This document shows positions 7,214 through 41,981 of a DNA stretch of 64,000 nt, in pieces (within the stretch, counting starts at the first letter, position 1; each line of letters opens with the position of its first letter). The position numbers were made by a program, and so were the translations under genes. The stretch is from Methanobrevibacter smithii ATCC 35061 (GTDB taxonomy: Archaea; Methanobacteriota; Methanobacteria; Methanobacteriales; Methanobacteriaceae). The notes below the pieces were generated by a model that did not search any database, had not been told where the DNA came from, and saw nothing but the letters and a program-made list of their open reading frames with translations. The stretch spans positions 1,204,501-1,268,500 of the forward strand of contig NC_009515.1 in NCBI RefSeq assembly GCF_000016525.1, written 5' to 3'.

Positions 7214-7999
7214 ATGAAAACTGGAAAAGGTGTTGTAAAAAAATATTCTAGAGAATACAATAGAACTCTTAAAAATGGTGAAAAGAAAAAATACACAACA
7301 AAACAGATACAAATCACAATACCTAAACATGATGATATATACGAAGATAAAGAAGAAGTTTTAATTATTCCTCAAAGTGAAATTGAAGAGTTTAAGAACT
7401 TGGAAGATAAAGTTAGTGCACTTGAAATAGCCAATTATATCTACACCAATGAAATAGAAACCACCCCAAAAGTAAATGTCGAAGCATTTGAAAATGAGAT
7501 TAATCAGCTTAAACAAGAAAAAGATCAATTATTATCTACTCTTGAAAATGAATCTTCAAAATTAGAAACTTTAAAAGACAAGCATTCTAAATTAATTGAA
7601 GAAAACGAAAACATCAAAACCAAATTCGTGAATATCAAACAGGAAACTGAAAACATCAAAACCAAATTCACAAGCATAAAAGACGAAAACAAAAACCTCA
7701 AGGACAAATGTTCATACATAAAAGATGAAAACAAAAGCATTAAAGATAGCTACGAAAGAATAAGCAATAAATACACTAGCTTAAAACAGGACACACTTAA
7801 TACTAAAACCAGCTATGCAAATATTTTTGAAAGTAATCAAAACCTAGAAAAAGAACTTAAAAGTATGTATGATGAATACAACGAATTAGTTGATAAATAT
7901 AATGAATTAGAAGAAGAAAATTACTTCCTCAAATCAAATAAAAGTCATGATGAATATATAGCTAATAGAATTAAAGAATTTATTTTAAAAACAGACTAA
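7214..7999 (+). CDS. Long coiled-coil protein of unknown function
   Basis: A 261-residue protein. The first ~75 residues form a compact basic/acidic domain (GKGVVKKYSREYNRTLKNG ... YEDKEEVLIIPQSEIEEF) I cannot assign. From about residue 85 to 250 it is almost continuous coiled coil, with near-repeats of 14-15 residues such as ENIKTKFVNIKQET, ENIKTKFTSIKDEN, KNLKDKCSYIKDEN and KSIKDSYERISNKY. At the DNA level the segments coding ENIKTKF are nearly identical, so the array may have grown by duplication. There is no signal peptide or membrane segment. GAGGAATAAAAT precedes the ATG as ribosome site. Its end overlaps the convergent zinc-ribbon gene by 4 bases. It may be structural or scaffold-like; no function is claimed. 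Confidence 0.7.
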   Translation: MKTGKGVVKKYSREYNRTLKNGEKKKYTTKQIQITIPKHDDIYEDKEEVLIIPQSEIEEFKNLEDKVSALEIANYIYTNEIETTPKVNVEAFENEINQLKQEKDQLLSTLENESSKLETLKDKHSKLIEENENIKTKFVNIKQETENIKTKFTSIKDENKNLKDKCSYIKDENKSIKDSYERISNKYTSLKQDTLNTKTSYANIFESNQNLEKELKSMYDEYNELVDKYNELEEENYFLKSNKSHDEYIANRIKEFILKTD

Positions 8000-38597: not shown

Positions 38598-39716
38598 ATG
38601 TCCACTTTACATAAGATGAAAGTTTTAACTGACTCTGCTCAGTACGATTTATGCGACTATGTAAATCATCAAAAATCATCACAAGTAAATCTGCCTGGAA
38701 TATACCATGCTACAGGCCATAATGGATGCCAAATACCATTATTTAAAACACTGCTTACAAATAAATGCAAAAATGACTGTAAATACTGCATTAATCAATC
38801 CAAAAGAACTTTCACCAGATTAGAATTAAAACCTGAAGAACTAGCTAAAGCTTTTATGACCTACTACAATAAAGGTCTTGTAAACGGTTTGTTTTTAAGT
38901 TCAGGTATTGCAGACAATGAAGATTCTACAATGGAAAAAACAATAGAAACCTGCAGATGTCTTAGAAAAGATTACGGTTACGATGATTATATACATCTAA
39001 AAATAGTTCCGGGAGCATCAAAAGATTCCATTAAAAGAGCTATGGCGCTTGCCAACAGAGTCAGTATTAATATTGAAGCCGCTACACCAAGCGGTTTGGC
39101 TGAACTGTCATCTACAAAGGATTATAAAAAAGATATACTGAAAAGATTACATTGGATAGATTCACTTGAAAACAGTTCTACAACATATCCAAATTCTACT
39201 CACACTACACAGTTAATTATCGGTGCAAATAACGAAACAGATAAGGAAATTCTACATAGAATAGATAAAATATACAAGAATTCCAAATTGCACAGTGCAT
39301 ATTACAGTGGATTTACACCGATTGAAGGTACTGAATTTGAAAAAAAAGACAGCTGCAATAGCCAAAGAGTAGGCAGACTTTACAATGCCGACAGTTTATT
39401 AAATGATTATAATTATAAACTTAAAGAATTGGTATTTGAAGATGATGACAGATTATCCCTAAATATTGATCCTAAAATTTTAGCTGCAAGTAATATGAAT
39501 ATATTTCCTGTAGAAATTAATAATGCACCATTTATTGACCTGATAAGAGTTCCAGGTATTGGTGTAAAATCAGCTAAAAAAATAATTTCTATTAGAAAAA
39601 GATATAAGTTTACAAAAAAAGAAGAGTTAAAAAGATTGGGAATAGCTGTAAATAGGGCTGAAAAATACATTAAATTAGATGGAGAATATCAGCCTAGTTT
39701 AGATATCTTCGAATAA
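38598..39716 (+). CDS. Radical SAM protein with C-terminal helix-hairpin-helix (DNA modification/repair type)
   Basis: A 372-residue protein. CKNDCKYCINQ (about residues 55-65) is the CxxxCxxC SAM/4Fe-4S motif. TIM-barrel core follows, with FLSSGIADNEDSTMEKTIE and VSINIEAATPSGLAEL. The C-terminal ~70 residues form a helix-hairpin-helix unit (FIDLIRVPGIGVKSAKKIISIRKRYKFTKKEELKRLGI) able to bind DNA. This architecture fits the putative DNA modification/repair radical SAM family often linked to a uracil-DNA glycosylase gene. No glycosylase gene is adjacent here. Its end overlaps the SegB-like gene by 18 bases in convergent orientation. Confidence 0.85.
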   Translation: MSTLHKMKVLTDSAQYDLCDYVNHQKSSQVNLPGIYHATGHNGCQIPLFKTLLTNKCKNDCKYCINQSKRTFTRLELKPEELAKAFMTYYNKGLVNGLFLSSGIADNEDSTMEKTIETCRCLRKDYGYDDYIHLKIVPGASKDSIKRAMALANRVSINIEAATPSGLAELSSTKDYKKDILKRLHWIDSLENSSTTYPNSTHTTQLIIGANNETDKEILHRIDKIYKNSKLHSAYYSGFTPIEGTEFEKKDSCNSQRVGRLYNADSLLNDYNYKLKELVFEDDDRLSLNIDPKILAASNMNIFPVEINNAPFIDLIRVPGIGVKSAKKIISIRKRYKFTKKEELKRLGIAVNRAEKYIKLDGEYQPSLDIFE

Positions 39717-40436
39717 TTCCCAAATCTCAGGATATTTTTTAGAAACCGCTTCATCAATTAAAACTGAAGCTTCTTTACTAATACTGAATTCAGGTTCTGT
39801 TTTTCTTAAATACCTGAATACTGCTGCAGATTGTGAAGACCATAAAGTTATTCTTGGATTTTTATCAACAATCTCTTTAACTTCAGCCACATTCTCTAAA
39901 ATTTTTTCCTGTTCTTTTTGATCTTGTATGCTTTCTTCATCACTTTCACTGCCAGGTAAGTCTTCGGATGATGTTTCAATATTTTCAGCTTCCTCTTGGT
40001 TGATATCCTCATCAGTATCATCTTCCACAGTATCTATTTGTTGGTTTTCACTAGATTCATCTTCTTCTACAATATTTTCTTGAATATTTTCATCATCTAC
40101 AATATCTTCACTAGATTCCTCTTCTTCACAAGTATCATCATCAAAAGATTTTGTATCTTCTACAATTTTATCACTGGACTCTTCATTTTCAGAAATTTTC
40201 TCCACAATTTTCTCGCTAGATTCATCATTTTCAGAAGTTTCTTCTACAATTTCTTCATTAGAATAATTATCTTCATCAACATTTTCTACAACATCCTCGT
40301 TAGATTCTTCCTGTTTTTCATCTTCACCTAACATGTCTTCTAAAGATACTGCAGAATTACTGTCAAAATCCTCATCATAAAAATCAGGAATTAAAGAATC
40401 TAATCCTTTACCTAAACCTGTTGATTTTTTAGCCAT
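39699..40436 (-). CDS. SegB/ParB-like partner of ParA: GLGKGLDSLIP tail, acidic linker, possible RHH domain
   Basis: A 245-residue protein in three parts. Residues 1-20 carry TGLGKGLDSLIP, the N-terminal ParA-contact motif of bacterial ParB (KGLGKGLxALI). Residues 21-180 are an extremely acidic low-complexity linker of imperfect repeats (SSEKIVEKISENE, SSDKIVEDTK, SSEDIVDDEN). Residues 191-245 form a small ordered domain: strand NPRITLWS, helix SAAVFRYLRK, then SISKEASVLIDEAVSKKYPEIW, a layout compatible with ribbon-helix-helix DNA binding, as in archaeal SegB and plasmid omega/ParG. The ParB nuclease-fold and HTH core are absent. The start codon abuts the ParA stop (TAG then ATG), with GGAGGTAATTAG as ribosome site. 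A DNA partition role is inferred. Confidence 0.7.
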   Translation of the reverse strand: MAKKSTGLGKGLDSLIPDFYDEDFDSNSAVSLEDMLGEDEKQEESNEDVVENVDEDNYSNEEIVEETSENDESSEKIVEKISENEESSDKIVEDTKSFDDDTCEEEESSEDIVDDENIQENIVEEDESSENQQIDTVEDDTDEDINQEEAENIETSSEDLPGSESDEESIQDQKEQEKILENVAEVKEIVDKNPRITLWSSQSAAVFRYLRKTEPEFSISKEASVLIDEAVSKKYPEIWELFEDI

Positions 40437-41213
40437 CTAATTACCTCCATCACGTTCTATAATTTCTTTAGCTAAACTTAGATAAGCTTTTGTACCTGTA
40501 CTTTCAGAATCATAAATTAAACAAGGTTTACCATAACTTGGAGCTTCAGCTAACCTGATATTTCTTGGAATCACAGTATTAAATAACAGATTAGTGCTTC
40601 CAAAATGATTTTTAAGTTCCTTGTAGACATCCTTACTGAGCCTTGTTCTTTTATCATATAATGTCAGAAGAATACCTTTGATTGGAACAGGTGTTCTAAG
40701 CCTCTTTTTAACTAAGTTAATAGTATTAATCAAATCAGCCACACCTTCCAATGCATAATACTCTGCTTGGATAGGTATAAGAACACTGTCAGCTGCAACT
40801 AATGCATTAACAGTTATAACACCTAAAGAAGGAGGTAAATCAATAAAGATATAGTCAAATAAAGGAGGTAAATCCTTAAGTGTTTCCTTTAAAACAATGT
40901 GATAATTTTCCTTTTTACTTAATTCAACCCCTGCTCCACTTAATGAAATATTACTTGGGACAATGAATAAATTCTTGATAAATGTAGGGATTGTTACTTT
41001 TTTAACACTTACATCCCCAATAATTGCATCATAAATAGTATTTTCTAATTTTGTTTTATCAATACCGAAGCTAGTAGTTGCATTACCCTGAGGATCCATA
41101 TCAATTACCAAAACACTTTTACCCATTACAGCTAGTGAAGTTGCTGTATTAACTACAGTTGTAGTCTTTCCACAGCCTCCTTTTTGATTCATTACAGCTA
41201 TTATTTCACTCAT
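40437..41213 (-). CDS. parA: ParA/Soj/SegA-type Walker ATPase
   Basis: A 258-residue partition ATPase. The deviant Walker A motif MNQKGGCGKTTTVVNTATSLA is at residues 8-28, with the signature first Lys. Walker A' (VLVIDMDPQGNATTSFGI) and Walker B (DYIFIDLPPSLGVITVNAL) follow. NTVIPRNIRLAEAPSYGKPCLIYD is the classic Soj C-terminal segment. Such ATPases bind DNA non-specifically as ATP dimers and move cargo held by a centromere-binding partner, here the downstream gene. Only a short leader with AAGGAG (near 41221-41227) separates the start from a 518-base heptad repeat array that may contain the promoter and centromere. Confidence 0.92.
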   Translation of the reverse strand: MSEIIAVMNQKGGCGKTTTVVNTATSLAVMGKSVLVIDMDPQGNATTSFGIDKTKLENTIYDAIIGDVSVKKVTIPTFIKNLFIVPSNISLSGAGVELSKKENYHIVLKETLKDLPPLFDYIFIDLPPSLGVITVNALVAADSVLIPIQAEYYALEGVADLINTINLVKKRLRTPVPIKGILLTLYDKRTRLSKDVYKELKNHFGSTNLLFNTVIPRNIRLAEAPSYGKPCLIYDSESTGTKAYLSLAKEIIERDGGN

Positions 41214-41236
41214 TAATTAATTCTCCTTATAAATGA

Positions 41237-41754
41237 TAAGTTCTAAGTTATTAGAAATAAGTTTTAAGTTATATCTTACAAGAGATAACTTCTAAGTTAT
41301 AACTTAAAAGAAATAACTTTTAACTTTTAAGAAATAAGTTAAAAGAGATAACTTATAGGATATAACTTAAAAGAAATAATTTTTAACTTTTAAGAGATAA
41401 CTTAAAAGAAATAACTTTTAACTTTTAAGAAATAAGTTAAAAGAGATAACTTATAGGATATAACTTAAAAGAAATAACTTTTAACTTTTAAGAGATAACT
41501 TAAAAGAAATAACTTTTAACTTTTAAGAGATAACTTAAAAGAAATAAGTTTTAACTTTTAATTAATAACTTATACCTCATAACTTAAAAGAGATAAGTTT
41601 TAAGTTAAAAGGTTTAATGTATAAGTTATATTTTATAACTTCTATCTTATAAATTCTATGTTTTAAGAAATAAGTTATAAATTATAAAGAATAAGAAATA
41701 AGTTAATAGTTATTAGTTATAACTTATCAGTTATAAGTTATAAGTTATAAATTA
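41237..41754. repeat. Array of 74 contiguous, in-phase 7-bp units next to parA
   Basis: From 41237 every seventh base starts a new unit without one insertion or deletion through 41754 (518 bases, 74 units). By my reading 21 units are TAACTTW and 15 are TAAGTTN, the reverse-complement orientation of the same word; most others are AAAGAAA, AAAGAGA, TAAGAAA or TAAGAGA, with more divergent units toward the right end (e.g. TATCTTA, TAAATTC). Stops occur in all frames, so it is non-coding. An extra weaker unit TAAATGA precedes at 41230. The size, phase and mixed direct/inverted order are what an array of binding sites for a dimeric RHH protein would look like. Confidence 0.95.
41314..41509. repeat. 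Two tandem 98-bp higher-order repeats inside the heptad array
   Basis: The 14-unit blocks 41314-41411 and 41412-41509 are identical by my reading except for one base (TAATTTT versus TAACTTT in the tenth unit). The last five units of the block are present a third time at 41510-41544. This shows growth of the array by recent duplication of multi-heptad blocks. Confidence 0.9.
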
Positions 41755-41981
41755 TAAAAATATTAAAATTAATCAAATATAAATTATTAATATTGTATAA
41801 GTCAAAAGCAATTGCTTTGAATTTTTCTATAAAACTAAGTAGGTATTACTTAAATCCATTATCGAATATTATGACAAATAATAATTTTACATCTAAAAAA
41901 CAGGTCATATCTAAATACAGAAGCAATTCTTAAATTAAAATATTCAAAAAAATAAAGAAAGAGTAGAGAATTAATCTCACT
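41755..41981. other. Spacer between heptad array and trpB2 stop
   Basis: This AT-rich spacer contains AATTTATATTTG on the minus strand near 41775-41785, a possible TATA element for a parA transcript that would include the array. It also has a hairpin CAAAAGCAATTGCTTTG at 41804-41820 that may end the trpB2 transcript. No ORF is seen. Confidence 0.4.

Follow-up and report, generated by a model that had tools for sequence, protein, structure and literature searches.

What kind of protein joins a ParB-like N-terminus to a long acidic linker and a small C-terminal domain foreign to ParB, and on which DNA would it act? The question is raised by a minus-strand open reading frame in the window, the 64,000-nucleotide stretch of the Methanobrevibacter smithii ATCC 35061 chromosome analyzed here. 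As stated in the preliminary description of this DNA, the frame encodes a product with an acidic linker and a C-terminal domain that begins at NPRITLW; the product is 245 aa long and begins with MAKKSTGLGKGLDSLIP. Two further features lie beyond that description: the gene is the second of a ParA operon (its start, position 40436, directly follows the segA end at 40437), and a heptad array lies upstream. Based on sequence evidence (SegB homology, gene order, conservation of the N-terminal motif and of its presumed pocket, the array, the identity of the site motif and its distribution), we consider it highly probable that the frame is the euryarchaeal SegB of a SegAB partition system and that the array of 76 heptads is the centromere, probably also serving as operator. 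The features are listed in Table 1. At its 3' end (39699-39716), segB overlaps the 3' end of the convergent gene by 18 bp.

Table 1. Features of the predicted segAB locus (positions within the window)
Feature	Position	Strand	Description	Basis
Convergent gene	38598-39716	+	radical-SAM/HHH gene, convergent to segB	
segB	39699..40436	-	predicted ParA/SegA partner, 245 aa	ORF, homologues and SegB profile match
RHH domain	39702..39860	-	predicted SegB RHH DNA-binding domain, residues 193-245, NPRITLW...PEFSIS...KYPEIW	hmmsearch to 7dv2
Linker	39861..40388	-	acidic with repeats, residues 17-192, variable among orthologues	length/charge table, 50 loci
Linker tandem repeats	40045-40131 and 40162-40252			Tandem Repeats Finder
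N-terminal motif	40389..40418	-	predicted ParA-binding motif GLGKGLDSLI, residues 7-16	invariant columns, ParB-like spacing
segA	40437..41213	-	Soj/ParA-type ATPase	Pfam AAA_31 (4.2e-62)
Heptad array	41227..41757	.	candidate centromere/operator (segS), 75.9 7-bp units, consensus STTATAA	TRF

A profile of the C-terminal domain matched SegB of Sulfolobus solfataricus in an hmmsearch (7dv2, E-value: 1.5e-7); a second profile, built from short homologues of full length, matched SegB 7duv (E-value: 3.3e-13) in an alignment that extends to LDFLLKK near the Sulfolobus N-terminus, facing LDALI. By sequence, the domain is a homologue of the Sulfolobus SegB RHH domain, which makes the gene pair SegAB. 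SegAB is known from both Thermoproteota and Euryarchaeota, with M. thermautotrophicus named as a carrier (PMC5120986), and both SegB lengths of 94-300 residues and overlap of segA with segB have been described (PMC12284271). Because of the profile homology, and because SegAB was already known in Euryarchaeota, the window protein is best interpreted as a SegB orthologue of a known family and not as a ParB with a swapped domain. The domain replacement proposed earlier is accordingly not borne out, and the C-terminal domain, which had been called unrelated, would be the SegB RHH domain, partner of the adjoining SegA. The reported lack of the ParB CTPase and HTH core does hold: ParB_N (PF02195) had no match in SegB or anywhere in the genome, with 11 of 14 control genomes positive. 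Pfam and NCBIfam searches gave no significant match for SegB (DUF6546, at E-value 0.038, fell below the cut-off).

An AF2 monomer model of residues 168-245, built with 40 homologues (pLDDT 82), has a helix-(strand region)-helix-helix arrangement with no strand assigned. With this model, Foldseek matched no SegB or RHH structure and VIA-align gave no match. These outcomes speak against the SegB reading; RHH domains are obligate dimers, however, and the strandless model was set aside because a dimeric RHH had been folded as a monomer. In the sequences, the strand region reads PEFSIS in 121 of 124 euryarchaeal proteins, and PGF[KR]MS, PSFKMS or PGFKIS in Sulfolobales.

Homologues of SegB occur in 122 of the 138 family genomes, covering 17 of 17 genera; searched by itself, the C-terminal domain appears in 135 of the 151 genomes in the phylum (20/20 genera). 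Ten genomes of the same genus had no segB match (G063, G065, G069, G072, G080, G084, G086, G089, G092 and G094); at least one of them, G084, is 99% complete, and the absence may reflect either gene loss or an assembly gap. In the 50 loci that were read, the last 53 SegB residues and the N-terminal motif are near-invariant, and a segA-type gene lies directly upstream of segB wherever the contig covers this position, often overlapping it. Several more distant loci have other arrangements. In Methanotrichaceae archaeon Ch14 (L085, 2320-3417), a gene following a SegA gene encodes a single-chain SegB-like protein that combines two RHH domains with a repeat-containing linker. In Thermoproteota other than Sulfolobales (L181-L195), homologues of the SegB domain are short stand-alone RHH proteins of the QPRITFYSP type; the six of these loci inspected closely had no adjoining ParA gene and no N-terminal motif. 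The segB-like genes of two Halobacteriota-type loci (L160 and L164) adjoin Cdc6/ATPase-type genes, with no SegA within the stretch examined for L160. A contig labelled 'Bacilli bacterium' (L132, JAFRZY010000007.1) carries a Methanobrevibacter segAB locus with its heptad array, and the label of this MAG contig is probably a binning error.

The 768-bp space upstream of segA contains 76 contiguous 7-bp units, for which TRF reported period 7 and 0% indels. The lag-7 excess of the array, 0.317, stands about 11 sd above the rest of the 64-kb window (mean -0.001, sd 0.029), and the next separate place in the window reaches 0.078, leaving the array as the sole such place. Relative to dinucleotide shuffles its z is 60, and that of other long arrays 15 to 50. 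When the whole chromosome (1,853,160 bases) was searched for TAASTTWTAASTTWTAASTT with up to 2 mismatches, all matches fell inside the array, which is effectively unique on the chromosome. DNA curvature was ruled out as the cause of the periodicity, the period being 7 and not 10-11. Most loci of the window's genus have the same period of 7 and the consensus STTATAA ahead of segA, as do genera g3, g5, g6, g7, g8, g9, part of g11, and g13. Long arrays, of 20-76 units, precede segA in Methanobrevibacter-type genera; of 78 such arrays, 51 hold one register from end to end, and 27 shift register once or twice.

Two adjacent heptads form a 13-bp palindrome, TTATAA-S-TTATAA (TTATAASTTATAA). The STTATAA consensus and the test for S-centred palindromes were fixed when only the published core AGA-S-TCT was known. 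Once the full published motif was also known, approximately 250 bp upstream of segA were scanned for every one of the 4096 possible h-S-rc(h) motifs. TTATAA-S-TTATAA ranked first of the 4096 in each of the held-out groups: Thermococci (12), f2 (3), f3 (7) and g12 (7). At five Halobacteriota-type loci, TTATAA tied for first with TTATCA, the signal being weak (mean 2.8 mismatches). Because TCTAGA-S-TCTAGA is the published ChIP-seq motif of S. solfataricus SegB (PMC12284271), 16 Sulfolobales served as a positive control, and the scan placed that motif first. Like the Sulfolobus site, the TTATAA-type site is 13 bp long, has a G/C centre and lies near segA, and since the half-sites of both are themselves palindromes, both can tile at 7 bp. 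As far as the motif goes, the layout of a SegB site (a 13-bp palindrome with an S centre upstream of segA) is found here with TTATAA as half-site. The window shows no enrichment of the Sulfolobus core AGASTCT, with 1 occurrence against 6.3 expected. We infer that the change of the RHH strand between PEFSIS and PGFKMS sets the TTATAA versus TCTAGA specificity.

Exact 13-mers are few per genome and clustered near segAB. Of 40 exact-site clusters located beyond 3 kb of segAB, 19 lie within 100 kb (4.0 expected), for a nominal p of 2e-9 that involves some rounded genome lengths, non-independent related genomes and a 100-kb limit set post hoc. G113 has no exact site near segAB.

The heptads might be an autoregulatory operator only, with the true centromere elsewhere or dispersed as in Sulfolobus. 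Autoregulation is common among RHH proteins, in many genera about 10-20 bp separate the array from segA, the short-array genera have few heptads upstream of segA, and the SegB sites of S. solfataricus are scattered. Three observations make this explanation unlikely. First, 76 units are far beyond the needs of an operator. Second, the 7-10 units of pSM19035 serve as centromere and operator together (PMC9499535). Third, the 250 bp preceding segA in G138 yielded no site, yet six ladders, with three overlapping exact TTATAASTTATAA sites in each, are spread over 63 kb at a distance of 31-94 kb from segAB (G138:C1:1073612-1136474, L233). Where a genus has few heptads, these may act as an operator alone; for the array of 76 heptads we prefer a centromere that probably doubles as one. 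The single Orc1/Cdc6 gene of this genome is about 23 kb from the array, and of 15 Methanobacteria examined, 13 have segAB at a distance of 10-85 kb from cdc6. The two loci lie far from each other in G138, G140 and each of the five Thermococci, and on these distances origin proximity was rejected as a general rule for segAB beyond part of the Methanobacteriales.

The linker of the window SegB is strongly acidic, with 75 D+E against 9 K+R over 176 residues. Tandem repeats are present in its DNA, but the preliminary count of about ten was generous: Tandem Repeats Finder reported 2.9 copies of a 30-nt unit and 2.2 copies of a 42-nt unit. Elsewhere in the window, a predicted coiled-coil protein (7214-7999) has 42-nt tandem repeats at 7601-7744. 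The alignment proposed with the preliminary description, in which linker length would vary between fixed ends, gave just this result: across 50 loci the linker ranges from 39 to 250 residues, with both ends of SegB fixed in Methanobacteriales and Thermococci. It was also suggested that the linker might be a DNA mimic or a phase-separating tail; the acidity itself would then be functional, with mimicry displacing SegA from DNA or the tail forming condensates. The strong negative charge of the window SegB fits this suggestion, as does the tracking of heptad number by linker length and charge at genus level (Spearman 0.75 and -0.79, respectively, n=15), although this correlation ignores kinship among non-independent genera and may reflect one or two events. 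However, charge over the 50 loci extends from strongly acidic to slightly basic, and the linker is neutral or basic in g2, g12, g13, g15, g16 and others. Acidity, confined to some genera, is not a property of the SegB family, and a role for it of either kind is distinctly improbable.

The N-terminal motif GLGKGLDSLI has invariant columns L8, G9, G11, L12, L15 and I16. The pattern LGxG[LI]xx[LI][ILF] occurs near the N-terminus of 120 of 124 distinct euryarchaeal-type SegB proteins; of the other four, three are truncated at a contig end or masked, and the start of the fourth is ambiguous. The preliminary description had named non-conservation among orthologues as the finding that would make the ParB likeness accidental, and these counts are the opposite. 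In Myxococcus xanthus ParB, L11, L15, L18 and I19 bind ParA, and R13 is needed for ATPase stimulation, which is nearly abolished by R13A (PMC12462528). SegB L8, K10, L12, L15 and I16 have the spacing of L11-R13-L15-L18-I19. Of the 120 proteins, 107 have K or R as the central residue, 12 have M or L and one has N.

The partner surface is likewise of the bacterial type. SegA is the sole strong AAA_31 match in the genome, and its best PDB match is 8ray (E-value: 1.8e-73), which we regard as the D60A construct of M. xanthus ParA, since the alanine as well as the residues given in PMC12462528 occupy the right positions. At the eleven positions of the M. xanthus ParA pocket (Y81, E82, D110, V116, E117, L150, G151, L152, L155, L187 and L192; PMC12462528), the window SegA has Y, D, S, V, E, L, G, V, V, L and L, such that Y81, V116, E117, L150, L152, L155, L187 and L192 are matched by identical or conservative residues. 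Y81, E117, L150, L187 and L192 (M. xanthus numbering) are shared without exception by the 125 methanobacterial loci, a redundant set in which the same genomes were taken from two collections. Sulfolobales SegA is without Y81, L187 and L192, and SegB there starts SELDFLL, without LGxG. Together, the ParB spacing and the matching SegA pocket uphold the ParB likeness first noted, and we predict that the motif is a genuine ParB-type ParA-binding motif. It is very improbable that the likeness arose by convergence, with no action on the ParB-type pocket of SegA. Replacement of the central basic residue in 13 of 120 proteins would fit convergence, and the pocket region and activating peptide of Sulfolobus SegA do differ from those of bacterial ParA (PMC12462528); but four hydrophobic residues and the central K/R are spaced as are the residues mutated in M. 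xanthus ParB, and the pocket, kept in methanobacterial SegA, is partly lost together with the motif in Sulfolobales.

Gaps between the window array and that of its nearest relative measure 21, 105, 56, 14 and 7 bases, plus one single edge base, and such multiple-of-7 gaps could also come from slippage alone. That the array represents a degenerating AT-rich tandem repeat lacking any protein partner, resembling a SegB site by coincidence, is nevertheless scarcely credible: the genome is AT-rich, slippage yields such indels between sister species and TTATAA resembles the archaeal TATA box, but consensus and register are kept upstream of segA in many genera, with a short form in another class, TTATAA came first of 4096 in held-out groups in a scan that recovers the known Sulfolobus site, and further exact sites cluster near segAB.

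Compared with the SegAB of S. solfataricus and S. acidocaldarius (PMC12284271, PMC5120986, PMC12557731; PDB 7duv, 7dv2), the system shares a gene order in which a ParA-type ATPase precedes an RHH protein whose N-terminus is flexible, and a SegB of variable length whose larger orthologues contain repeats. It differs in having a full LGxGLxxLI motif with a bacterial-type SegA pocket, in the half-site and RHH strand, and in tiling its sites as contiguous lattices of up to 76 heptads in Methanobrevibacter-type genera. Unlike Metallosphaera SegB, with its predicted beta-helix, the window protein has a disordered acidic linker.

The delta/omega/parS system of plasmid pSM19035 is similar to the one predicted here in that an RHH centromere-binding protein contacts ParA via its N-terminus and binds contiguous 7-bp repeats, which in pSM19035 overlap the partition-gene promoters; each RHH dimer occupies one 7-bp unit, and at least 4 contiguous units are required for ParA activation (PMC9499535). 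The array, at 75.9 units upstream of segA, well exceeds four contiguous heptads at a partition promoter. Whereas pSM19035 parS has 7-10 non-palindromic WATCACW units, the chromosomal units here are palindromic STTATAA; neither the WATCACW heptad nor the omega N-terminal peptide was found, and that peptide (MIVGNLGAQKAKRND) is without the chromosomal ParB motif represented here by GLGKGLDSLI. Bacterial ParABS, as in M. xanthus (PMC12462528), shares the N-terminal ParA-binding motif with equal residue spacing. In place of its ParB/Srx CTPase domain, HTH and bacterial-type parS, this system has an RHH domain and heptad sites.

These comparisons suggest how the system may work. SegB dimers would bind the array side by side through the RHH domain, at approximately one dimer per 7 bp by analogy with pSM19035, while the disordered linker would hold the GLGKGLDSLI peptide outward. 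Like the bacterial ParB peptide, GLGKGLDSLI would dock in the pocket at the SegA-ATP dimer interface and trigger ATP hydrolysis, and the origin-proximal region would then be moved over the nucleoid by a diffusion ratchet. ParB reaches a high local peptide number by CTP-dependent spreading; here, tens of SegB dimers on a fixed lattice would provide it, with long linkers letting many of the N-terminal peptides reach SegA. For Methanobrevibacter-type genera in particular, we regard it as reasonably likely that a single regional centromere near the origin consists of 20-76 contiguous SegB sites, on which an RHH ladder presents tens of ParB-type peptides as a spreading-free alternative to the ParB CTPase clamp, that linkers lengthen and acidify with the lattice, and that TTATAA-S-TTATAA is the SegB site of Methanobacteriales and Thermococci.

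A 2016 review listed the nature of archaeal centromeres and the variation of SegAB in Euryarchaeota among open questions (PMC5120986), and a 2025 study of SegB, having detected no site close to segAB in Thermococcus sibiricus, assumed an unlike sequence there (PMC12284271). Our literature searches found no description of a euryarchaeal SegB site or heptad array, although one may exist elsewhere. Although the SegAB family is known, the centromere site in the euryarchaeal half of the archaea had not been located in the literature searched, and the TTATAA-S-TTATAA motif offers a concrete candidate. The system links archaeal SegAB both to the activation peptide of bacterial ParB and to the RHH/heptad centromeres of plasmids, and it marks a putative centromere in Methanobrevibacter, a main methanogen genus of guts and rumens.
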